Below the pieces are notes generated by a model. The model was not told the DNA's origin. It worked only from the letters and a program-made list of their open reading frames with translations, and did not search any database. From an uncultured Burkholderiales bacterium (lineage in GTDB: Bacteria; Pseudomonadota; Gammaproteobacteria; Burkholderiales; Eutrophovitaceae), in assembly GCA_951812315.1 (NCBI GenBank), contig CATOSA010000035.1, positions 60,660 to 124,659 of the forward strand: DNA of 64,000 bases, written 5' to 3'. The position numbers and the translations under genes were made by a program. The first letter of the stretch is position 1. Each line of letters opens with the position of its first letter. Below, in pieces: positions 8,901 through 55,614 of this stretch.

Positions 8901-10700
8901 ATGAATTCCGCGAAAACCACACGCCGGCTCACGGCCATACTGGCAGCCGATGCCGTCGGCTATTCCCGCCTGATGGGTGATGACGACGAAGCTACCGTCG
9001 AAGCAATCACAATGGCGCGGGCCTTATTTACGCGTCAGGTCGAAGCTCAACATGGGCGAGTCGTCAATGCGCCAGGGGATTCCATCCTTGCAGAGTTCGC
9101 ATCGGTGGTAGAAGCGGTCAAAGCCGCAGTCGATATTCAGGCGGAACTCGCGTCGAGCAACAAAGCCTTGCCCGAGCACCGCAGAATGCAGTTTCGGATT
9201 GGGGTGAATCTCGGAGACGTCGTCGTGCGCGATGGCGCGCTTTATGGCGACGGGGTGAATATCGCCGCAAGGTTGGAAGCGCTGGCAGACGCCGGCGGAA
9301 TATGCATCTAACGAACGGTTTACGAGAACGTAAACGGACGGCTCCCGATTGGTTTTGAAGATCTTGGAGAACATCAGGTCAAGAACATCGCCGAGCCGGT
9401 TCGGGCGTTTCGGGTCGATCCGGAAGCGGACGGTGCCGTTCCGTTGCCGCCGAATCAAGGGGCACCGAAGGCAGAGGCGGCGGCTGCCAGTCCACCAATG
9501 GTGGCCGTATTGCCTTTTGACAACCTGAGCAATGATCCTGAACAGGAATACTTCGCGGACGGAATCGCCGAAGAGCTGATTACGATATTGGCGCACATTT
9601 CGCGCGTCTCCGTTATTGCACGAAACTCTACGTTCACCTACAAGGGAAAGGCCGTCGACGTGCGCACCGTCGGTAAAGAAATGGGCGCCGAGTACGTATT
9701 GGAGGGAAGCGTACGGCGTTCGGCAGATCGCGTTCGGGTGACAGCGCAGTTGCTGTCCTCGCGAGATGGCTCTCACCTCTGGTCCGAAAAATACGAGTCC
9801 GACCTCAACGCCGCAGACTTGTTCGAGCTTCAGGACGAGATCGCGAACAAAGTCGCGACCGCGGTAGGTGGCAGTCACGGCGTCATAGTCTTGTCAAAGA
9901 CGCGGGAAATCTCGCGCAAACCGCCAGAGTTGCTTCGTTCCTATGACTGTGTGCTAAAGGCACTTGAGTTTGCCCGAACGCTATCTTCAGAATCCTACGA
10001 CGCTGCGCGCGATTGCCTTGAGCGAACGGTGGCCGAGGATCCGGAGTATTCGGAAGGATGGGCACGCCTGGTCAACATCTACCTGAACGAATATGCCCTC
10101 GGCTTTAACCCAAAGCCAGAGCCGTTGGCGCGTGCGGAGCGCGCACTACGCAAGGCGCTCGCACTTGATCCATCCAGTGCATTAGCCCGAAGCCAAGAAG
10201 CATTTCTACTGTACTTGCGCAAGGACCCGCTATTTATCAGCAAGGCTTTACGGTGGGCAGAAACGTATCCTAACGACGGTCACGGACTAATGAGCCTCGG
10301 GTCGTGGTTGTGTTGGGCAGAGCGGTGGGAAGATGGGTTTCGTTTGCTGGAAAGGTCAAAACGATTCAACCTGGTGCTTCCCGGCTGGGCGCACTTCCCT
10401 GTCGCCGACTGGCACATGCGCAATCGTGAATTTGAGAAAGCGCTGGAGTCGATACTCAGGTCCGAGATGCATGGCCTGTTTTGGTACCACTCCCGGCTGG
10501 CTCGAGCCTACGCGCACTTGGGTCGCATGAAAGAAGCTCACGAGCAAGTTGCCATCCTGCGCAAGATTCGGCCGGATTACGAGCGCTTTGCCGCTGCTGA
10601 ATCGCGCAAATGGATGTGGAATAATGATGCCATTGACGTTCAGATGACGGGCTTGCGCAAAGCAGGTTTGAACATTCCGAGTGATTCCGGAGAGTCGTGA
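8901..10700 (+). pseudogene. Class III adenylate cyclase with TolB-like and TPR domains, interrupted by one TAA
   Basis: One frame runs from ATG 8901 to TGA 10700 with a single internal TAA at 9309-9311 (codon 137). The first part (136 residues) is a class III nucleotidyl cyclase domain with ILAADAVGYSRLMGDDDE, NAPGDSILAEFASV and YGDGVNIAARLEALADAGGICI. The metal-binding Asp residues are present. The frame resumes directly with RTVYENVNGRLPIGFEDLG, the normal family continuation, so Ser is expected at the stop (TCA to TAA). Then follow VAVLPFDNLSNDPEQEYFADG (TolB/PBP-like, about residue 200) and C-terminal TPR helices. Family members make cAMP and sense signals through the C-terminal part. 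Without readthrough the product lacks the end of the cyclase fold and is probably inactive. The second part may be translated from about 9444. Confidence 0.85.
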
Positions 10701-24281: not shown

Positions 24282-25361
24282 CTACCAGCCAAGCTCCCTG
24301 CGAATTTCCTGCACCGCTGATCGCGTTGTTACAAGGTGATTGAACGGCCTTCGCGCACTCGCGCAGCGCATTAGCGGAACGATGGCTTCGTACTTTGGCT
24401 CCTTACACACCGAGCATGGGCCGGAGATGCAGACGACGTGTTTGCCTGGCGTGGTGGATAGACGAACGAGGTCGTCGAATCCAACTACGCTCACGGCGCG
24501 AACATCGCAACCGATGGGTTCGCCCCTGGCGGAGAAGGGCTACCACAGGATGTCGCCGGCCCAGTCGCTTTTCGAAAGCAGGTCATCGATACGCGATTGC
24601 GCCAATTCCGGGTTCTCCTTCTGAATCGCGAGTTGAAACAAACTGTGTGAGTGGTTGGCGACTGACACTGAGGTCACAACAATATCGATCTCCTTGGCCT
24701 TTTCGAAGGCCTCGCGGGTGAATGGGCGCTTGCGAAGCGCCTTCTCTTCCTGCGCCGATACCACCGGCACGGAATGTAGTACCACGTACTCCGGTGTCGG
24801 CTTGACATCCCTGAACAATCCCAGCGAAACAATCGGTGCGCTGTCCGGGTTGTCGATAAAGAAGCCGCTCGTCAGCATGTGTAACCAGATCTGCGGCAGG
24901 TTCTTCGCCCACTTGAGTTTGTTTGCGAGATGGTTCGCAAATGCCCGGCTGGTGCCGCCGGCAGCCAGACCGATGTGTACCTCGTTGCGGGGCGGTGCGA
25001 TGCTTTTGCCGTTCGCCTGAACCTGGCGAACCAGATCCATTACCTGATCGGCGGCGAGTTCTGCAATGTTTTCAAAGGCCATTTCGCCGTTGTCCCCTGC
25101 CGCGGAAATCCGGCACTGCACGCCGCTTTTTCTGGAGACCAGCATTGAAAGTTCAAGGTCCTCGCGCGCCGGGAAAATAATAATCCCCCTTTCGAACGCC
25201 CATTTGAGAATCTTGTTCGGCGTTTCGCGGCTGGCAGTCGGATAACCATTTTCTTTAAGCCAGTCCCGAACATCAGTGCTCAATTGCTTTCTCTTAAGCA
25301 ACAGCGTGGCAACGTGGTAGACCACGTCGTCGGGCAGTTCAGTAACGTCCAGTTGTGCCAT
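24282..25361 (-). pseudogene. Sugar-binding-domain transcriptional regulator (SorC/DeoR-like), interrupted by TAG
   Basis: One frame from ATG 25361 (AAGGA upstream) to 24282 has a single TAG at 24540-24542 (codon 274). The N-terminal 75 residues look like a helix-turn-helix or winged-helix region (LLKRKQLSTDVRDWLKENGY, NKILKWAFERG). The remainder is like the SorC sugar-binding domain: VHIGLAAGGTSRAFANHLA, IVSLGLFRD, DIVVTSVSVANHSH, SKSDWAGDILW, stop, QPFSARGEPIGCD, DLVRLSTTPGKHVVCISGP. The position of AGDIL followed by PF and an effector-binding tail is what this domain normally shows, so the stop lies within the domain. The gene diverges from the Pup-like gene and may have controlled it. Confidence 0.65.
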
Positions 25362-25417
25362 CGGCGATCCTTTCCCCTTAACGATATCGGGCTTATGCAC
25401 CGAAGTCGATAAAGTCT

Positions 25418-25462: not shown

Positions 25463-25620
25463 GCACGCAAATTACCGGTTTGTGCTGTCGCCATGGCGTG
25501 ACATTGTCCCGCTTGCTGCGTTGGTGACTGGCAACAGGAAAAGCAGATCGGACGCGGCACTTCGGAGTTCGCATGTCGGGCTCGTCGACTCGATCCACAA
25601 TTACATTGAGGAGTTATCGC

Positions 25621-25818
25621 ATGTACTTCATCCCCCAATTTGTACACACCACATCCCGTACTTCAACCTCCGACCAGGCTTTGCCGTCGCATGCGGCAAA
25701 CGCGGGCGGAGACAAGGCCACTGCTCTTGCCGATCGCGCGGCAGCGTTGATCGCCGGCAACCTGTCGGGAGGCAGCCGGACATTTATCAAGTCCAATCTT
25801 CAGACCGGCGGCGAATAA
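25621..25818 (+). CDS. Pup-like protein modifier ending in Gly-Gly-Glu
   Basis: 65 residues from ATG 25621; TGAGGAG ends 7 bases upstream, which favours this start over ATG 25573. The C-terminus is FIKSNLQTGGE, matching the end of actinobacterial Pup (FVRAYVQKGGQ in mycobacteria) at the aromatic, aliphatic, basic, Gln and Gly-Gly positions. The terminal residue is already Glu, so no deamidation would be needed before ligation through its side-chain carboxylate. Residues 1-35 are polar, Ser/Thr/Ala rich and probably disordered; ATALADRAAALIAG is a likely helix. Length equals that of known Pup. The PafA/Dop-like gene starts 11 bases downstream, the usual genetic neighbour. The first residues (MYFIPQF) are more hydrophobic than in known Pup. 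Confidence 0.88.
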   Translation: MYFIPQFVHTTSRTSTSDQALPSHAANAGGDKATALADRAAALIAGNLSGGSRTFIKSNLQTGGE

Positions 25819-25829
25819 GCTGCCAGGCA

Positions 25830-27644
25830 GTGGCGGCCAAAAGTCTTCACGATGCCCGGGTGCTCGGCTGGCCCTCGCTCTTCGGTCTGGAGAGCGAGTA
25901 CCAGATTACGTTCTTTGACGGAAATGGCGAAACGCTTTTCAGGGAGTCGTGCGCGGGCGAACTGGTAAGCGGTGCCGGGAGCAGAACGGTTTTCTTGCCG
26001 GGCCGGGACGAGTTTGACCTTTTCCTGTCCAATGGCGGCCGTTTCTACCGGGACTCTTGCATTGGCCTGTGTAACCTTGAATACGCAACACCCGAGTGCA
26101 CGACGCCTGACGAATTGATCGCCCACATCCAGGCTGGCGACGCCATCATGGCAGAAGCGGCCCGCGAATTTGTCGCATCCCATGGCGACGTTGACTCGGC
26201 CCTGGTATCCCGGTGCAATTTCGATTACCACGGCCATACCAGCGGTTCTCACGAGAATCATCTGCATACGATGTCGCCGCAACGACTGGCGCCGTAACTC
26301 ATACCATTACTTGCGAGCCGCAGCATTGTCAGTGGTGGTGGAGGGTTTGACGACGCGTCACCGGGCCTCGATTTCATGTGTTCACCCAGGGTTCGTCATC
26401 TCGAGTACGTGATTTCGCGTGGTGCGCAGGATTCTCGCGCAATATTTACGGTCAAGGAAGAAAGTCTCGCCAGGCTTGGCTTCCACCGGCTTCAATTGTT
26501 AAGTAGCGAAAGCGTGCGTTGTGAAACGAGCGAACGCTTGCGTTTTGCACCGGTCGCGATGCACTTGCGCATAGCGGCCGCCGGACTCGATCCAGGCGAG
26601 GCGATGAGGCTCGCTCACCCGATGTCAGCAATCAACGCGTTCGCGCGCGACCCGACTGGTAAGGCTACGGCCGAACTTGAATCCGGCCGCAAGGCCACCG
26701 CGCTCGAGATTCAACGTCACTATCTCGAGATTGCTGAATCCTGCCTGTCCGAGCGGTGGATGCCAGCGTGGGCCGAAGCCGAATGTGCGCGATGGCGTTG
26801 GGTCCTCGACGCTCTTTCTGACAATGCGCAAAGTCTTGTCGGGCGTCTTGACTGGCCAACCAAGCGTTTCTTGTACAGCGCCTATTGCGAGAGGCATGGA
26901 ATCCGCTGGGAAAGTTTGCCACGCTGGAGCAGCGCGCTGCGTGAGTTGTTTCCTCGTGCGCGAGCCAGCAAGGGAAACAAATTCAAGTCCGCACGCACGA
27001 CACCGCGTATCGAATCCATGCTGGCGAAACGCGGTGGTAATCGTTCGCGCGTGGCTGAAGTGCTGCATCGTCACGACCTGAACCGTTCCGATCTGCCGAG
27101 TTTCATCGACCTACGCGACAAGTTGTTCGAAACTGACATCCGTTTTGGCGAGATTGGTCCCGACAGTCTCTTCGCGCGCCTTCAGAACGAGGGCCTGATC
27201 GCAGCGGGAAAGATTGGAACAGACGAGGTCGAATATGCTCGCAACAATGCCCCGCCGGACACGCGCGCGCAGGTACGCGCGACCTGGATCCGAAAACAAC
27301 ATACGAAACTCGCGCAGCAAAAGGTAGATTCAACAAAGACCAGGCGTGTGCCACGGCTTGTTTCATCTCGCAGGCGTTTGTCCCGCATGAGCCGCTTCGT
27401 AAGCAGGACAAGCAGCACGGAGTGCAACTGGGATCGTATTCGTGACCACGAGCGCAACATGGAAGTTCGAATCGATGACCCCTTTCAGGCCGAGTGCGGA
27501 GATTGGGAGCCAATGAAGCGTGTCCGGGAACGGTCCATCGTCGACAGGGAGCCGGCGCTGGGCGCAATCGTCCAGGCCATTGATGCCGGGCGTCCACGTC
27601 AGGCGCTCGCACGAATTCTGTCGCTGATCACGGAGCAGGATTGA
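25830..27644 (+). pseudogene. Pup ligase family protein (PafA/Dop-like), interrupted by one in-frame TAA
   Basis: The start is uncertain; GTG 25830 is used here, as the homology begins at FGLESEY (residues 18-24). The glutamine-synthetase-like Pup ligase/deamidase core is evident: SNGGRFYRD with the candidate catalytic Asp75, NLEYATPECTTPDELIAH (84-101), NFDYHGHTSGSHENHL (130-145), then after the stop the TTRSRP-like GAQDSRAIFTVKEES, GRKATALEIQRHYLE, and PPDTRAQVRATWIRK with DPFQAECGDW at the C-terminus. TAA at 26295-26297 (codon 156) sits between QRLAP and LIPLL in the same frame. Open parts are 25830-26297 and about 26376-27644. EYATPEC is closer to PafA than to Dop. At about 600 codons it is longer than typical PafA, with an Arg/Ser-rich insertion near the C-terminus. 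It is probably co-transcribed with the Pup-like gene. Confidence 0.88.
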
Positions 27645-27671
27645 TTATCCCCGCTTGTATGCCACTACTGC

Positions 27672-28328
27672 TTGAACGTAATCAAGTCGTTCGTTCCAGG
27701 CATTCCGGTTCCTGTCCTGCGACACGGAGGTGCTACAGCGGGTCCGGCATTGAAAGCGCTATTCGAAAATGAAACTTGTCAAAGCAGCACTGGGATGTTT
27801 GAGAGTGCCGGGCTGATGCTATATCGATTTTATGAAGCAGGGGGTCAATACGATCGTGCGGCCCGGGTTATTGAACGTTTGCTTGCACGCGCACGGGAAA
27901 AGGGCGACGTGTACGACATTGCCATGTTGACCAACAATCTTGGCTACGAATACTTGCTAGTTGGGCATTGGCCGACGGCCGAGCAACATTTCCAAGACGC
28001 ACTCGCACGCTTCAAGCAAATCGATGCGCGCACAGACATCCTGAACTGCCATGCCAATATACTTGAATGCCGCTTTTCCCGATTACGGCCCGAGAAATGG
28101 GATGCGCTGTTGCCGATGCTGAAAACCATAAATCGCGCGCTGGTAAACAGCAGCGATTGGCGGGCGCGCAAAACACTGCGGCTGCTCGCGCGCTATGCGC
28201 AACATCGTGGCCATATGCGCGCCGCGCGCGGCTGGATTCGCCGGGCGATTGCCGCTGCGAAATACCAGCCAACCAGGCTGCGAGAATGGGACGAGGCGTA
28301 CCTCGAGCGACTTGAAGCGCTGCGCTAG
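27672..28328 (+). CDS. TPR-like helical repeat protein downstream of the Pup ligase
   Basis: Up to 218 residues; TTG 27672 is the first possible start, but ATG 27795 (MFESAGLMLYRFYEAGG) is where homology to repeats begins. Helical pairs look like tetratricopeptide repeats: GQYDRAARVIERLLARAREKG, MLTNNLGYEYLLVGHWPTAE with AEQHFQDALARFKQIDA, and GHMRAARGWIRRAIAAAK. It has no signal peptide. Starting 27 bases after the ligase on the same strand, it is probably in the same transcript and could recruit targets or partners, which is inference from position. Confidence 0.7.
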   Translation: MNVIKSFVPGIPVPVLRHGGATAGPALKALFENETCQSSTGMFESAGLMLYRFYEAGGQYDRAARVIERLLARAREKGDVYDIAMLTNNLGYEYLLVGHWPTAEQHFQDALARFKQIDARTDILNCHANILECRFSRLRPEKWDALLPMLKTINRALVNSSDWRARKTLRLLARYAQHRGHMRAARGWIRRAIAAAKYQPTRLREWDEAYLERLEALR

Positions 28329-31876: not shown

Positions 31877-32399
31877 GTCTGTGTGATCCCTCGAGATTAG
31901 CTGTCGATTTCCAAGTGCAAACGGTGGCGACGATTTCGTGCAGGAGTATGTTCAGCGTGAAATCGCGGCTATCTTCAATAACGAGTTCAGGATCCCGCAG
32001 AAATCATCATTAAGGCTTCAGGCAACCCCATTGGCCTCTGCGTTTCCTATCGCTCCCTGACTCAGCCGCCTGTGTTGCGCCGGGCGGTCTGAACCCTAAA
32101 TCAAGAAGCGTTCGGTAGCAAGATCAGCACGACGGTGCGGCACGCAATCGTGCGGGTATTCAGCAAACGTCAGGAAAGGCTCGAGTGACCCGATCCGGCG
32201 TTTGCATAGTCGATGCGCGAGCAAAATGTGCTTGGCAGCACGATGATCTGGAAACAGCACCATGATCGGGAAACAGCGCCAGTAATCGTCCGCGCTATAA
32301 TCAGAACGAAGAATAATCACGCGGCCGTATTTCAATAAACCGGTATCTCAATAAGCCGGTGCTGCATAAACGAACTCGTTACGGGAGGTTACAAAGGTC
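31877..32399. other. Intergenic region, divergent promoters presumed
   Basis: About 520 bases between the NicX-like and dehydrogenase genes. A small imperfect direct repeat (AAACCGGTATCTCAATAAGCCGG) occurs around 32337-32360. No gene or RNA was recognised; GGGAGG at about 32382 is the ribosome site for the next gene. Confidence 0.35.
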
Positions 32400-33452
32400 A
32401 TGCATTGCCATCAGATCGTTGAGTGGGGCAAACCGCTAGAGGTACGCGACTATCCGAACCCCAAGCCCGAGGGAACCGAGGTTCTGGTCAAGGTCGAAGC
32501 GGCTGGTGTGTGTCACAGCGACATTCATATTCGGCAAGGTTTTTTTGACCTTGGCGATGGCGAACGCTCGGTGCTGGAGGAGCGTGGCGCCAAGCTGCCG
32601 ATGACGCTTGGCCACGAGACTGTGGGTGAGGTCGCCGAACTCGGTCCGAAAGCCGATGGTGTAGCTGTAGGTGACAAGCGAATTGTCTTTCCATGGATCG
32701 GCTGCGGCAATTGCGGCTGGTGTAATGCGGGAACCGAGTATTTGTGCAATACACCGAAATTCATCGGCGCCCGGGTCAATGGCGGCTACAGCGACTACGT
32801 CGTCGTGCCGCATCCGCGTTATCTGATTCCCTATGACGGAATCGAGACTAACCTGGCGTGTACTTACGCGTGTTCGGGTATTACTGCCTACTCGGCACTG
32901 CAGAAAATCGGCGACATCAGCGGGGACGACACCATTGTGGTGATCGGTGCCGGCGGTGTCGGCTTCAACGCAGTGCATATTGCGCGTGCGATGTTTGATG
33001 CAAATATCATCGTCGCCGATATTGATCCTGCCAAACGCGATGCGTTACGCGATATGGATCGTGTGACAGTGATTGACAACAGCAAAGCCGACGCTGTGAA
33101 AGAAGTGGTGAGTCTTACCAACGGTGGCGCCAAGGCAACGCTGGATTTTGTCGGTGCGCCGCAAACTTCACAGTTCGGGCTCAGCGTGATGAGCAAGGCT
33201 GGCACTCACGTCGTTATCGGGCTCTACGGCAAGAAACTGCCGATAGCCTTGCCGCTGTTCCCGAGCAAGGAAATCACCATGCGCGGCTCTTACGTCGGCA
33301 ATTTGCAACAGATGCATGAACTGATGGATCTGGTAGGTACCGGCAAGGTCCCTCAGTTGCCAGTCCATCCGCGGCCCCTGGACCAGGCGGAGCAGGCACT
33401 TCGGGATCTCGAAGCAGGAAAAGTCGTCGGCCGTATCGTGCTCAATCCGTAG
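32400..33452 (+). CDS. Zinc-dependent alcohol dehydrogenase (MDR family)
   Basis: 350 residues from ATG 32400 with GGGAGG upstream. Catalytic zinc ligands are seen in AAGVCHSDIHIRQG and TLGHETVGEV; the structural zinc site is complete in CGNCGWCNAGTEYLC. The NAD-binding motif is VIGAGGVGFNAVHIARA, followed by VADIDPAKRDA, where Asp favours NAD over NADP. The substrate is not evident; similarity to medium-chain alcohol and cyclohexenecarbonyl-CoA dehydrogenases is plausible. It is not clearly in an operon; the following region holds a dispersed repeat. Confidence 0.92.
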   Translation: MHCHQIVEWGKPLEVRDYPNPKPEGTEVLVKVEAAGVCHSDIHIRQGFFDLGDGERSVLEERGAKLPMTLGHETVGEVAELGPKADGVAVGDKRIVFPWIGCGNCGWCNAGTEYLCNTPKFIGARVNGGYSDYVVVPHPRYLIPYDGIETNLACTYACSGITAYSALQKIGDISGDDTIVVIGAGGVGFNAVHIARAMFDANIIVADIDPAKRDALRDMDRVTVIDNSKADAVKEVVSLTNGGAKATLDFVGAPQTSQFGLSVMSKAGTHVVIGLYGKKLPIALPLFPSKEITMRGSYVGNLQQMHELMDLVGTGKVPQLPVHPRPLDQAEQALRDLEAGKVVGRIVLNP

Positions 33453-33782
33453 CTGAGCTTGAAGGCATGCTGCGCGAACGTGTCCGCGTTCGCGGGCATG
33501 CCGGGGGTAGCCCGGCGGCTAGTTACTTTCTCTTGCGTGCCCAAGAGAAAGTAACCAAAGAGAAGGGCACCCCACTAAGCCGCCCCTTCGGGGTTCCCTG
33601 TGTTACTCGAAGCGGCAGGCGGCTGCGGAACTCGCGCGCAAAAACTTCGCGCTCAGACAGTCCTCGCCGAAATCCCCTGCCACTCCTGCGTTACTCGGCG
33701 GCTCAGAAGGGGGAAGTACTTCTTAAGTACGTAGGCCGACCTACGTACTGCATGTCTTTCTGTTTATCTGTCGCAGCAACCC
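33453..33782. other. Intergenic region with a dispersed-type hairpin repeat
   Basis: No gene is supported. A frame crossing it (AQEKVTKEKGT and RPFGVPCVTR) resembles spurious proteins often predicted over a repeated intergenic sequence in proteobacteria, so it is not called. Confidence 0.45.
33522..33555. repeat. Perfect 14-bp inverted repeat (intergenic hairpin)
   Basis: GTTACTTTCTCTTG (33522-33535) and CAAGAGAAAGTAAC (33542-33555) are separated by CGTGCC. The arms and the following AAAGAGAAGGGCACCCC stretch resemble a widespread proteobacterial intergenic repeat. There is no T-tract, so it is not a typical terminator. Confidence 0.7.
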
Positions 33783-34181
33783 TCAGGCCGGCGCGAACAT
33801 TGGTAGGGGCGTGCCATCCTCGGCGTTTTGGAACACCAGCTTGACCTTGTCGCCAAGCTTGATTGCATCGGCGTCGCAATCAACAATGTTGGTCATCATT
33901 GACACACCTTCATCGAGCGTGACGTAACCGATCGTATAAGGTACCGGCACACCGCGGCGCATGGTGCTGAAGGTGTAAATCACACCGGTGCCTTTTGCGG
34001 GTACCCAGTCGATCTGGTCTGAATTGCAGTGCGGGCATATCGTGCGCGGATAAAAATGAAATTCATTGCAATCCTTGCACTTGCCGACCAGCAACTTGCC
34101 TTCCTTGCATGCCTCAAAAAAGCGTTCGTTCTCGGGATTGAGAGCCGGCGCCTGGATGATTCGTTCTTGTGCTGTAGTCAT
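33783..34181 (-). CDS. DUF35 zinc-ribbon/OB-fold protein, partner of the thiolase-like protein
   Basis: 132 residues from ATG 34181. The N-terminal zinc ribbon has CKDCNEFHFYPRTICPHC (two CxxC pairs) and the C-terminal OB-fold has GTGVIYTFSTMRRG, PYTIGYVTLDEGVSMMTNI and LGDKVKLVF. DUF35 proteins bind acyl-CoA and form complexes with thiolase-fold partners; ChsH2 is the example in steroid side-chain breakdown. It lies 23 bases downstream of the thiolase-like gene on the same strand, so the pair almost certainly works together. Confidence 0.92.
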   Translation of the reverse strand: MTTAQERIIQAPALNPENERFFEACKEGKLLVGKCKDCNEFHFYPRTICPHCNSDQIDWVPAKGTGVIYTFSTMRRGVPVPYTIGYVTLDEGVSMMTNIVDCDADAIKLGDKVKLVFQNAEDGTPLPMFAPA

Positions 34182-34204
34182 GTCTATGCCTGTTTAGTTT
34201 GCAG

Positions 34205-35371
34205 CTATTCCCGTTCGAGGATTACCGTGCCGCTGGCGTGCCGCGAGCCCAGATTGCCGCCCATCCCTTGCGCCAGCGCCAGCTTGCAATCGGGGACTTG
34301 TACCTTTGGATGCGCTTCGCCGCGTAACTGGCGCACGGCTTCAATCACTTTGGTCATTCCGCCGCGATTGGCAGGGTGGTTATTGCACAGGCCGCCGCCG
34401 TCGGTATTGAACGGCAGTTTGCCCGTGCCGGATATCAAATTGCCATCGGCCACGAACTTGCCGCCTTCACCTTTCTTGCAAAAGCCAAGGTCTTCGAGCT
34501 GCATCAGTACTGTGATCGTGAAACTGTCGTAGATCGACACATACTGGATATCGGCCGGTTTGACGCCGGCTTCTGCAAATGCCGCGGGACCCGAGAATGC
34601 AGCCGCGCAGGTTGTAAGATCGACCTTGCCGCCATTCTGGCCCCTGGGGGCTTCGCCAGCACCCAGAACCTTGACCAGCGGCCGATTCAGTTGCTTCGCC
34701 ACTTCCGGGCGTGCCACGATCAATGCGCCGCCGCCATCGCTGACCACGCAACAATCCAGACGGTGCAGCGGATCAGCGATCATTGGTGAGTTAACCACAT
34801 CTTCAACTGTCACCACATTGCGAAGCATCGCATGCTCGTTGTACTGCGCGTGGTGGGACGCCGCGACCTTGATCCATGCGAGCTGTTCGCTGGTGGTGCC
34901 AAATTCGTGCATGTGGCGGCGCGCGACCATTGCATAGCCGTTGGCGGTGGCCATTCCGTAAGAAAATTCGTAGGCCACATCGGGCGCGGACGCACCGTAA
35001 TTGCGCGCCTGGGTGCCGGAAGAACCTTCCGAGCGCGGCCAGCCGGACAGCGTAATCAACGCAATATTGCATTTGCCAAGCGCAATCGCTTCAGCCGCGT
35101 GTGCCACGTGAACGACGTAAGACGAACCACCGGTTTCCGTAGTATCAACGTGGCGAACCTTGAGACCCATGTAATCCACCATGGATAGCGGTCCCAGGCC
35201 GGGCGCGTCAGTCGCGCAAAAATACCCGTCGATATCGTCTTTGGTCAGACCGGAATCAAGTATTGCACCGCGTGCGCATTCCGCATGGAGTTGCGCAACC
35301 GATTTGTCCGGTGCCTTGCGTGTCGGATGTTCATACGCACCGACGATGTAGGCTTTTCCCTTGATGCTCAT
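34205..35371 (-). CDS. Thiolase-like protein without the usual N-terminal Cys (SCP-x/Ltp2-like)
   Basis: 388 residues; start at ATG 35371 (MSIKGKAYIVGAYEHPTRK), which fits the family better than the 11-residue extension. The thiolase fold is visible, but where true thiolases have a nucleophilic Cys the sequence is ETGGSSYVVHVAHAAEAI. The C-terminal region contains NHPANRGGMTKVIEAV and SDGGGALIVARPE. Together with the adjacent DUF35 protein this resembles the Ltp2-ChsH2 aldolase, which cleaves hydroxyacyl-CoA by retro-aldol rather than thiolysis. The substrate is unknown. A degenerate thiolase with another role is the alternative. Confidence 0.85.
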   Translation of the reverse strand: MSIKGKAYIVGAYEHPTRKAPDKSVAQLHAECARGAILDSGLTKDDIDGYFCATDAPGLGPLSMVDYMGLKVRHVDTTETGGSSYVVHVAHAAEAIALGKCNIALITLSGWPRSEGSSGTQARNYGASAPDVAYEFSYGMATANGYAMVARRHMHEFGTTSEQLAWIKVAASHHAQYNEHAMLRNVVTVEDVVNSPMIADPLHRLDCCVVSDGGGALIVARPEVAKQLNRPLVKVLGAGEAPRGQNGGKVDLTTCAAAFSGPAAFAEAGVKPADIQYVSIYDSFTITVLMQLEDLGFCKKGEGGKFVADGNLISGTGKLPFNTDGGGLCNNHPANRGGMTKVIEAVRQLRGEAHPKVQVPDCKLALAQGMGGNLGSRHASGTVILERE

Positions 35372-35548
35372 GGTTTTTGTTCTCGCTGCTTTCGAATCGA
35401 CCAAGGCAGAACTATAGCAACACTAAGACATGTGTACTTGTGACCCGGCGAAACAGGGTTCTGGATACCGGGACTTTCAACGCGGGATGATTTTGTTTGC
35501 GCTGTTCGGCTTGTTGCCGGGTTGCGCGCAATCGGCTAGCGTGCGGTC

Positions 35549-35779
35549 ATGGCTCATGACACCTCAGTCAAGCCGCGCGTTGTGCACTCGGTAATTGCGC
35601 CGGGCGAATCCTTGTGTGTAGACGTGCTGTGCCACGAGAACGGGCAATACGAGTGGCGATTTTACCGGCGCGACGCTGAAGATCTTCGCGGATGGTTCGA
35701 AATGGAACGTTCGCCACAGTGTTACGCATCTGAGGACGAAGCTCTGGCAGCGGCGCGCGGGCATTTTCACTGGCTGTAG
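35549..35779 (+). CDS. Small conserved-looking hypothetical protein
   Basis: 76 residues from ATG 35549. The composition is protein-like (VCHENGQYEWRFYRRDAEDL, YASEDEALAAARGHFHWL) with a compact alpha/beta pattern, and resembles small DUF1508-type proteins that end in an exDEAlaAA helix. It has no signal peptide or membrane segment. A ribosome site is not obvious. It is transcribed divergently from the thiolase-like gene and precedes the crotonase-like gene by about 100 bases. Confidence 0.55.
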   Translation: MAHDTSVKPRVVHSVIAPGESLCVDVLCHENGQYEWRFYRRDAEDLRGWFEMERSPQCYASEDEALAAARGHFHWL

Positions 35780-35880
35780 GGGGACAGGGCAAGGGTTGCG
35801 CGGAACCAGCCGGACTGGCGTCCCGCCAGTTGTTGTAAAGTCCCGATCTCAATTCTTCTTCTCAGAATGCGAAATCAATA

Positions 35881-36987
35881 ATGGAAGAACTCGTTAAATT
35901 CAGACTGGCCGGTCCGCGGCAACAGGTTGCCATTGCAACCCTGGTCCGCGAGAAACCACTTAACAGCCTGTTGCTCGACACGATTGATCAACTGGCGGAG
36001 AACATTAACGCATGGCTCGCCGACGACAGCATTGCCTGTATCGTTATCGACAGCAGCAAGCGTGCATTCTGCGCCGGTGCTGACATTACCGTACTCTATC
36101 GCGCCGTCAAGGAGGCGAACGGAGGTGCCAATCCTTATGCGGAAGCGTTTTTCCTGAATGAGTACAAGCTAAACTACGCCTTGCACACTGCAACCAAACC
36201 TATTGTCGTTTGGGGTGAGGGAATTGTGATGGGCGGCGGCTGGGGTCTTCTCGGAGGCTGTTCGCATCGTATCGGCACGCCTTCCACGCGGCTTGCAATG
36301 CCCGAGATCAACATAGGTTTGTTTCCTGATGCCGGCGGCACAAAATTCCTGTCATCGCTGGGCGAAATCGGAATGTTTGCGGGTCTCACCGGATTTCAAA
36401 TGTCAGCGGGCGACTGTCTGGACCTGAAACTGCTCGACTTCGTCGTCGATCCCACATCGAAAGACGCGATTTTCGAAGGTCTGGAAGACATGCCGTGGGT
36501 ATCCGATGAAAAGGAAAACGGGCGCCTCATATCGGAACTGCTCGCGCAGTACCGCACAGCCGAGGAGTTGCCGGGAAAACTGCTTTCACATCGAGACAGC
36601 GTAACGAGCTTGATGAAAGCATGCCTCAGCGCCGACAATTTCTTCGAGGTGTTTGCGTCAGCACCTGCGTTCGGCGACGAAGCGCTGGATGCTGCAATGA
36701 CTGCTTACAGGAAGGGATCAGCGACGACCGCAAAAACTTTTGTTGAACAAATGCGCCGTGCAAAAGGGATGTCGCTGGCCGACATGTTCAGAATGGAACT
36801 GGTTGTCGCTTATCAGTGCATTCGTCATGGGGATTTTCCGGAAGGCGTGCGTGCGCTGCTCATCGACAAGGATAGAACCCCCCAGTGGGCATACAAGTCT
36901 GCATTGGACGTGCCCAACGCATACGTTGCGGCACACTTCGAGCCGTCATGGCCGGGAGAGCATCCGCTCGCCTCGCTCGGGCACTAA
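35881..36987 (+). CDS. 3-hydroxyisobutyryl-CoA hydrolase-like crotonase
   Basis: 368 residues from ATG 35881. The crotonase core is evident: REKPLNSLLLDTIDQL, SKRAFCAGADITVLY and GIVMGGGWGLLGGCSHRIG (oxyanion hole) and MPEINIGLFPDAGGTKFLS, with the acidic catalytic residues of hydrolases in the last motif. The long C-terminal part with DFPEGVRALLIDKDRTPQW is diagnostic for the 3-hydroxyisobutyryl-CoA hydrolase group rather than for hydratases of about 260 residues. The enzyme belongs to valine breakdown, but the local context (acyl-CoA synthetase, thiolase-like, DUF35) would allow a different branched hydroxyacyl-CoA. Confidence 0.92.
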   Translation: MEELVKFRLAGPRQQVAIATLVREKPLNSLLLDTIDQLAENINAWLADDSIACIVIDSSKRAFCAGADITVLYRAVKEANGGANPYAEAFFLNEYKLNYALHTATKPIVVWGEGIVMGGGWGLLGGCSHRIGTPSTRLAMPEINIGLFPDAGGTKFLSSLGEIGMFAGLTGFQMSAGDCLDLKLLDFVVDPTSKDAIFEGLEDMPWVSDEKENGRLISELLAQYRTAEELPGKLLSHRDSVTSLMKACLSADNFFEVFASAPAFGDEALDAAMTAYRKGSATTAKTFVEQMRRAKGMSLADMFRMELVVAYQCIRHGDFPEGVRALLIDKDRTPQWAYKSALDVPNAYVAAHFEPSWPGEHPLASLGH

Positions 36988-54801: not shown

Positions 54802-55614
54802 TCAGGCCGCGCTCTTCAACGCCGTTTGTTCGAAGTACACCGCATCGGGGGTACGCCGGTCAAGCCCAGTGTGACGACGCCGGGTATTGTAAAAACGAAA
54901 GTATTTGTCCAGTCCGGCGCGTAATGCCGCCAGCGTTTCATACGCGCGCAGATACACGTCTTCGTACTTCACACTGCGCCACAACCGTTCGACGAACACG
55001 TTGTCGATCCAGCGAGCCTTGCCGTCCATGCTGATCGTCACTTCGTGGTCCTTGAGAACGCGGGTGAACGCATCGGCCGTGAACTGCGTGCCCTGATCGG
55101 TGTTGAATATCTCGGGTGTACCGTAGCCACGCAATGCCTCTTCGAGCGCCTCGACGCAAAAGTCGCTGTCCATCGTGTTCGACGCCCGCCACGAAAGCAC
55201 CTTGCGCGTATGCCAGTGCATAATCGCCACGAGCTACATGAACCCCTTGGCCATCGGTAGATAACAGATATCGCTCGCCCACACCTGGTTGGCCCGCGTG
55301 ATTGTCATGTCCCTGAGCAAGTAAGGATAGATCTTGTGTCCCTTGTCTGGCGTGCTGGTGCGCCGCTTCGGTTACAGCGCCCTGATCTGCATCTGACGCA
55401 TCAGCCGCTGTACGCGCTTACGATTGACCTGCAGCCCGCGTGTATCGAGTTCGTTGCGAATACGACGGCTTCCGTAGAACGGCAGCTCAAGGTCTTCGGC
55501 TGACACCTGTGCGCCGCGATAGTACGCTGTGCAGCGTGCCACTCCGAGTAACTCGCAGCGGCGTGCCCTGGACAGTTCGTGAGCGCTTTGAATCTGTGCT
55601 CGGCGCTCGCTCAC
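54802..55614 (-). pseudogene. IS3-family transposase OrfB (copy 2), two stops and an 11-codon deletion
   Basis: From GTG 55614 the frame meets TAA at 55372-55374 and TAG at 55234-55236, then reads to 54802. The catalytic residues are present (WASDI, NTDQG, VERLW). The deletion removes LMRLIDEIHLE relative to copy 1, shortening the N-terminal helical part. The lesions at the two Tyr-like positions are shared with copy 1, so they predate at least one transposition. Confidence 0.9.

Follow-up and report, generated by a model that had tools for sequence, protein, structure and literature searches.

Does a Gram-negative bacterium possess a pupylation system of its own, and if so, is it still functional? 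Pupylation is best known from actinobacteria. In the stretch of DNA analysed here (hereafter the window; 64,000 nucleotides of contig CATOSA010000035.1 from an uncultured Burkholderiales bacterium), a small gene whose product ends like Pup directly precedes a gene of the Pup ligase family PF03136, a pairing which an earlier inspection of the DNA letters (the sequence-only reading) had taken for a pupylation module. With a rough probability of 0.7, we regard the locus as a Pup-like, probably proteasome-independent tagging module that was recently broken in this genome. The terminal glutamate of the modifier would be joined by the ligase, with ATP, to lysines of target proteins; the ligase gene is now interrupted by two stop codons, and the module is likely non-working in the window genome.

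The modifier gene and its tail

The modifier gene (25621..25818, plus strand) encodes a protein of 65 residues with the C-terminus FIKSNLQTGGE; this product and the 11 bases between its stop codon and the GTG start of the ligase gene at 25830 are both found in the DNA as had been described. A likely ribosome-binding site, GAGGAG (25608..25613, plus strand; a candidate read from the sequence), is located seven bases upstream of the ATG. By its length and its GGE end the protein agrees with the 50-90 residues and the C-terminal G-[EQ] that serve to recognise Pup in the accessible part of PMC2588565, and a PafA-family gene, whose adjacency is a further mark of Pup genes, begins after the 11 bases just mentioned.

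Among the 831 open reading frames (ORFs) of at least 30 residues in the window, a GG[EQ] end occurs twice and a Pup-type tail once. Tails were scored with BLOSUM62 over 14 residues against 11 distinct canonical Pup tails; the modifier reached 39, the runner-up 17. The same score was applied to loci fetched with a ligase alignment (the best 80 of 308, supplemented by genome searches). With duplicates of the own genome and locus L007 excluded, 31 of 12,721 ORFs scored at least 34, which are exactly the 31 bearing the tail motif, and the ORF ranked next scored 22. Thirty of these 31 end at most 421 bases from a ligase-family ORF, and the remaining one ends at a distance of 1345 bases. Eight of 11 tail letters are common to the modifier and the Pup of locus L031, and protein P0171 shares the tail SRTFLKANRQTGGE with the modifier (E 0.46). 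The near homologue P0002 shows 94% identity over all 65 residues and retains the GGE; a tail not kept in close homologues, which had been named beforehand as an outcome that would speak against the module, was thus not observed in this one homologue.

That the small ORF occurs by chance, or encodes an unrelated small protein which merely precedes the ligase gene, is very improbable. The missing match to a Pup model and a weak match, below cut-off, to the Rv1893-like family PF23706 (E 0.0098) would fit such an origin. However, the modifier is conserved over 65 residues in P0002, which has no Rv1893 match, the tail score separates it from other ORFs, its position relative to the ligase gene is the same as in other modifier-ligase loci, and the GAGGAG and the 11-base spacing argue in the same direction. 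As far as its sequence tells, the body of the modifier is unrecognisable as Pup, and the likeness lies in the tail.

The interrupted ligase gene

The first piece of the ligase gene (25830..26294, plus strand, 155 codons including the GTG start) contains the ATP-binding GLESE (25884-25898), the catalytic-type Asp (26052-26054) and the HEN motif (from 26250), all on the plus strand. It is followed by an in-frame TAA (26295..26297, plus strand). The second piece (26298..27641, plus strand, 448 codons) continues in the same frame up to an in-frame TGA (27642..27644, plus strand), which parts the ligase from a TPR domain (27645..28328, plus strand; PF13424, 34 bits, cut-off 30). The motifs GLESE, SNGGRFYRD, EYATPEC and SGSHEN are carried by this frame, in accordance with the sequence-only reading. 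Of the profile matches that had been envisaged for both proteins, that of the ligase was obtained, with 66 and 149 bits for the two pieces (PF03136, cut-off 25; 197 bits in the genome search), and a ligase devoid of any such match, the other outcome named beforehand as speaking against the module, was not observed; that of the modifier to PF05639 was not obtained. The pieces remain below the cut-offs of the PafA equivalog TIGR03686 (48 and 100 bits, cut-off 551) and of the Dop equivalog TIGR03688 (44 and 91 bits, cut-off 492).

The closest intact relative, P0004 (847 residues, from jgi), reads through both stop positions. Its alignments with the two ligase pieces and the TPR part are all gap-free and cover 155, 448 and 224 residues at 70, 60 and 64% identity, respectively, the last corresponding to P0004 residues 606-829. 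As the same frame is colinear with P0004 past 27644, the TGA falls within a stretch that forms a single gene in P0004. At the position of the TAA, all 22 relatives compared (alignment A2) have a sense residue. The ligase can thus not be described as a single gene ending at 27644, as had been proposed, since its frame is interrupted at 26295 and 27642 and runs to 28328; nor did the notion of an intact working module hold, given the two in-frame stops and the severed TPR part.

It is unlikely, if conceivable, that the module works and the ligase-TPR protein is made, the stops being assembly errors, a minority allele, or codons that are read through. The 827 aligned codons contain no indel and only two stops, 65 of 66 family-invariant columns are kept, and divergence is comparable to that of the intact relative, so that either a recent break or stops that are not real have to be assumed. 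On the other hand, two different stop codons, TAA and TGA, occur in one gene, and the ligase gene is lacking in the other genomes of the genus (0 of 3). A second window gene, which encodes a cyclase followed by a TPR part (8901-10697), has an in-frame TAA at 9309 and for this reason favours decay. Taken as a break, the loss of ligase function would be recent, because the pieces flanking the stops have not evolved at a higher rate than the intact relative. In a frame-relative stop scan of the window with 116 candidates, the stops at 9309, 27642 and 26295 ranked first, fourth and 11th; an earlier codon-usage scan of the window with a fixed threshold listed none of the three.

With regard to the probable activity of the intact protein, residues G19, E21, E23, D75, H141 and E142 are invariant in the alignment, and the GhExE, catalytic Asp and HEN-type residues, whose meaning is explained in the accessible part of PMC7947786, are present. 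The predicted fold of intact P0004 supports an assignment to the Pup ligase family. Pup ligases use ATP to activate the terminal Glu of Pup, which is then joined to lysine (accessible parts of PMC2588565, PMC3511204 and PMC7947786). Since both the GGE tail and the residues of the active site are kept, this known chemistry is the simplest reading for intact members of the clade; it is inferred from the modelled fold and the conserved active-site residues. The TPR domain would serve to pick the targets. An insert of about 60 residues in the second piece (approximate bounds 26925..27113, plus strand, from the alignment and the P0004 model), predicted to be mostly helical in P0004, is absent in the canonical PafA and Dop rows as well as in P0013, P0015, P0018 and P0020. 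Hydrophobic stretches, called by a threshold of our own, were found neither in the window ligase nor in P0004; one to three are present in L005, P0076, P0080, P0085, P0090 and P0094.

A third ligase branch and related loci

Phylogenetic analysis places the window ligase and its intact relatives on a third branch, separate from both PafA and Dop. Two trees were built, a quick one and a careful one, with rows that we picked from the proteins found and the ORFs of the loci. In the careful tree of 41 rows, in which L006 was left out, the Dop-scoring gene of L009 and one gene each of L004 and L052 cluster with Dop (98/98).

Four of the fetched loci, all non-canonical, contain a modifier ending in GG[EQ] beside a ligase-family gene. 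In L009 (a proteobacterial metagenome-assembled genome), the modifier (tail SQEFLKSSRQTGGQ) has a PF03136 gene on either side, and a third PF03136 gene is on the opposite strand; in L004, of the same class, it (SMEFIRQSRQHGGQ) is again flanked by two PF03136 genes, and so is that of L052 (AEEYLQQNRQRGGE), a member of the Gemmataceae. L005, also of the same class, has a modifier ending in VEGGE and one PF03136 gene. One of the L009 genes beside the modifier scores 264 bits for Dop and 230 bits for PafA, both below cut-off, and the other modifier-flanking ligase gene is a member of the third branch. With a Dop-like gene already present in L009, L004 and L052, the ligase role would fall to the third-branch member in each. 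L009 and L052 also have an ARC-like ATPase as neighbour (TIGR03689 is the best match, 216 and 274 bits, below the cut-off of 505).

These observations bear on the idea that the PF03136 protein of the window is a Dop-like deamidase or depupylase, or a peptide ligase which makes a small metabolite. We consider this improbable. In addition to the separate Dop-like genes of the three loci, NCBIfam scores slightly favour PafA over Dop (by 48 to 44 bits for the first piece and by 100 to 91 bits for the second), there is no Dop-loop, and A-T follows the catalytic Asp as in PafA. However, the loop is also lacking in the Dop-like genes found at L009 and L052; the Dop-like gene of L004 is cut by the contig end. 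The two loci with Gln-ending modifiers, L004 and L009, both have a Dop-like gene; as to Glu-ending ones, the window genome and the L005 genome have a single PF03136 gene each, and L052 has a Dop-like one. A Glu-ending tag would need no deamidase, as fits a genome with a single PF03136 gene.

Besides its three PF03136 genes, locus L009 (3785-16776) comprises the GGQ modifier, the ARC-like ATPase, a weak JAB-domain match and an AAA_5 ATPase that adjoins two proteins with no Pfam match. In L004 (1420-4180), the GGQ modifier has the Dop-like gene, truncated at the contig end, on one side and the third-branch ligase gene on the other.

Search for proteasome genes

The sequence-only reading had noted that the window harbours no proteasome or Mpa/ARC gene and had named a whole-genome search as a check. 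Extended to the genome, the search gave a similar picture: HslV is the sole PF00227 match, there is one PF03136 gene, and PF16450 gave no match, the latter being a weak negative as the metagenome-assembled genome is 89% complete and the same model failed to find the ARC-like ATPase in the L052 genome. From this combination it is likely that the mark is not tied to the 20S proteasome, and the signal would not be read by it. In the L009 genome, too, HslV is the sole PF00227 match.

Comparison with known systems

With the Pup-PafA-Dop systems of actinobacteria and Nitrospirota (PF05639, TIGR03686, TIGR03688), the window locus shares the tail F-[IV]-[KR]-x-x-x-Q-x-G-G-[EQ], the position upstream of a PF03136 ligase and the active-site residues. 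It differs in that the modifier body is unmatched by the Pup model, the ligase lies outside the PafA and Dop clades and has a TPR domain, the insert of about 60 residues and an interrupted gene, and the genome has no second PF03136, ARC-type or 20S match. Pupylation without a proteasome in Gram-negative bacteria has been in print since 2008 (Iyer et al. 2008, accessible part of PMC2588565). As described there, Plesiocystis and Rhodopirellula likewise have a Pup-type small gene beside the ligase gene, but their ligases carry a four-transmembrane insert, unlike the window ligase, which has no hydrophobic stretch. According to the accessible part of PMC3511204, corynebacteria also have pup directly before the ligase gene and no 20S genes; in contrast to the window, they retain a proteasomal ATPase gene, and their ligase is named pafA. 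The same source reports a Leptospirillum Pup without GGE. A GG[EQ] modifier accompanies a third-branch ligase in loci L009, L052 and L004, too, but all have a Dop-like paralogue, L009 and L052 an ARC-like ATPase, and their ligases are only distantly akin to that of the window. In the literature searched (mostly open access, without preprints), no third Pup ligase branch, no TPR-fused Pup ligase and no betaproteobacterial Pup was recognised.

The observation is thus real and partly as first described; proteasome-less pupylation was known, and the branch, the TPR fusion and the host set the present locus apart as a variant. More tentatively, and with rather less than even odds, the locus may represent pupylation of a third kind, shared by Proteobacteria, Planctomycetota and related groups, with a separate ligase branch, some members fused to target-binding TPR domains, divergent Pup-like tags and no proteasome. 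Where these tags end in Glu, neither deamidase nor depupylase would be needed, the mark would be irreversible and non-degradative, and the window would be a probably decaying betaproteobacterial example. If true, tag ligation would be uncoupled from both proteasome and deamidase in Gram-negative bacteria. The third branch would help to address the origin of PafA and Dop and the contribution of the TPR part to target choice. The broken ligase lowers the value of the locus as a working system, not the interest of the branch. P0004 and other intact relatives are testable in E. coli, and the broken copy suggests gain and loss of the pathway.

Several points weigh against these interpretations. Tag conjugation is a prediction from sequence and fold, and the stops may be assembly errors. 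The modifier gave no match to the Pfam Pup model PF05639 at E 0.1 or E 1, nor was it singled out by a profile of 45 residues built from 25 canonical Pups, which ranked it second of the 831 window ORFs at E 1.2; of the planctomycete-like modifiers scanned, three (P0117, P0151 and P0153) do have weak PF05639 matches below cut-off (E 0.01-0.02). A search for related modifiers yielded 63 matches, all ending in GG[EQ] (36 Q, 27 E), a uniformity that is partly due to construction since candidates were picked by shared five-letter words, and only P0002 and P0171 among them resemble the window modifier. The closest ligase relatives, P0004-P0012, are known from the protein alone, with no adjoining modifier established; no GG[EQ] ORF is adjacent to the third-branch ligases of L010, L011 and the plus-strand copy of L009; and 50 of 80 genome_contigs loci (L009-L088) are without an ORF of the tail pattern, contig ends and other tails being unaccounted for. 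The TPR match of P0004 itself is below the Pfam cut-off (20 vs 30 bits), whereas that of the window piece is above it. Finally, in a quick tree of 82 rows the Dop-like group of L004, L006, L009 and L052 is separate from Dop, and the tree is unrooted, so that the third branch may be closer kin of PafA or of Dop.

Host and distribution

For the 16S gene of this genome (L099), located on a different contig from the window, the nearest among plasmid-collection records, which are a biased sample, are those of Niveibacterium and Cupriavidus (91%); all 25 16S matches listed are from betaproteobacteria. Over window positions 32373-36900 there is synteny with G003 and, in part, with G001, two genomes of the same genus (72-83% DNA identity). 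Right of the module, five proteins have matches of 71-92% at the corresponding position of G003, and a sixth has one of 36%. The contig (C35) therefore belongs to this genome. Together with the PF03136 match, the tail score and the predicted P0004 fold, the 16S result bears out the view that this Gram-negative genome has a Pup-like modifier gene next to a member of the Pup ligase family.

Between 24137 and 32373, no DNA match within the genus was present among the matches listed (40 scored candidates per genome), which places the module in a genus-variable stretch. PF03136 was detected in one of 150 relatives, one of 399 genomes of the order and one of 398 of the phylum, in each case the own genome, and in four of 369 genomes of the class; these genome sets overlap. 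A search with the single protein found no relative in genome_contigs or viral_contigs, and the ligase alignment found no relative in viral_contigs. In plasmid records, ligase matches were restricted to distant ones in Nonomuraea and Tsukamurella.

Other features of the window

The divergent neighbour of the modifier gene (24540-25400, minus strand, 286 residues) has no Pfam match at E 0.1 and went undetected in 16 further genomes of the family. Judged by eye, it is a putative regulator; the fold predicted from its sequence alone was of insufficient quality for a structure search (pLDDT 42). A promoter scan gave one hit compared to 1.1 expected, none above chance. In the cyclase gene mentioned above (8901-10697, plus strand), the cyclase domain (PF00211) is followed in the same frame by the TPR part; the domain is cut by the TAA at 9309-9311, which tops the frame-relative scan. 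A lone integrase core domain of 142 residues (54802-55230, minus strand) is probably an insertion-sequence remnant. Finally, a repeat of about 250 bases (33486-33738) has at least 12 more copies on other contigs, and copies were also found in three genomes of the genus.
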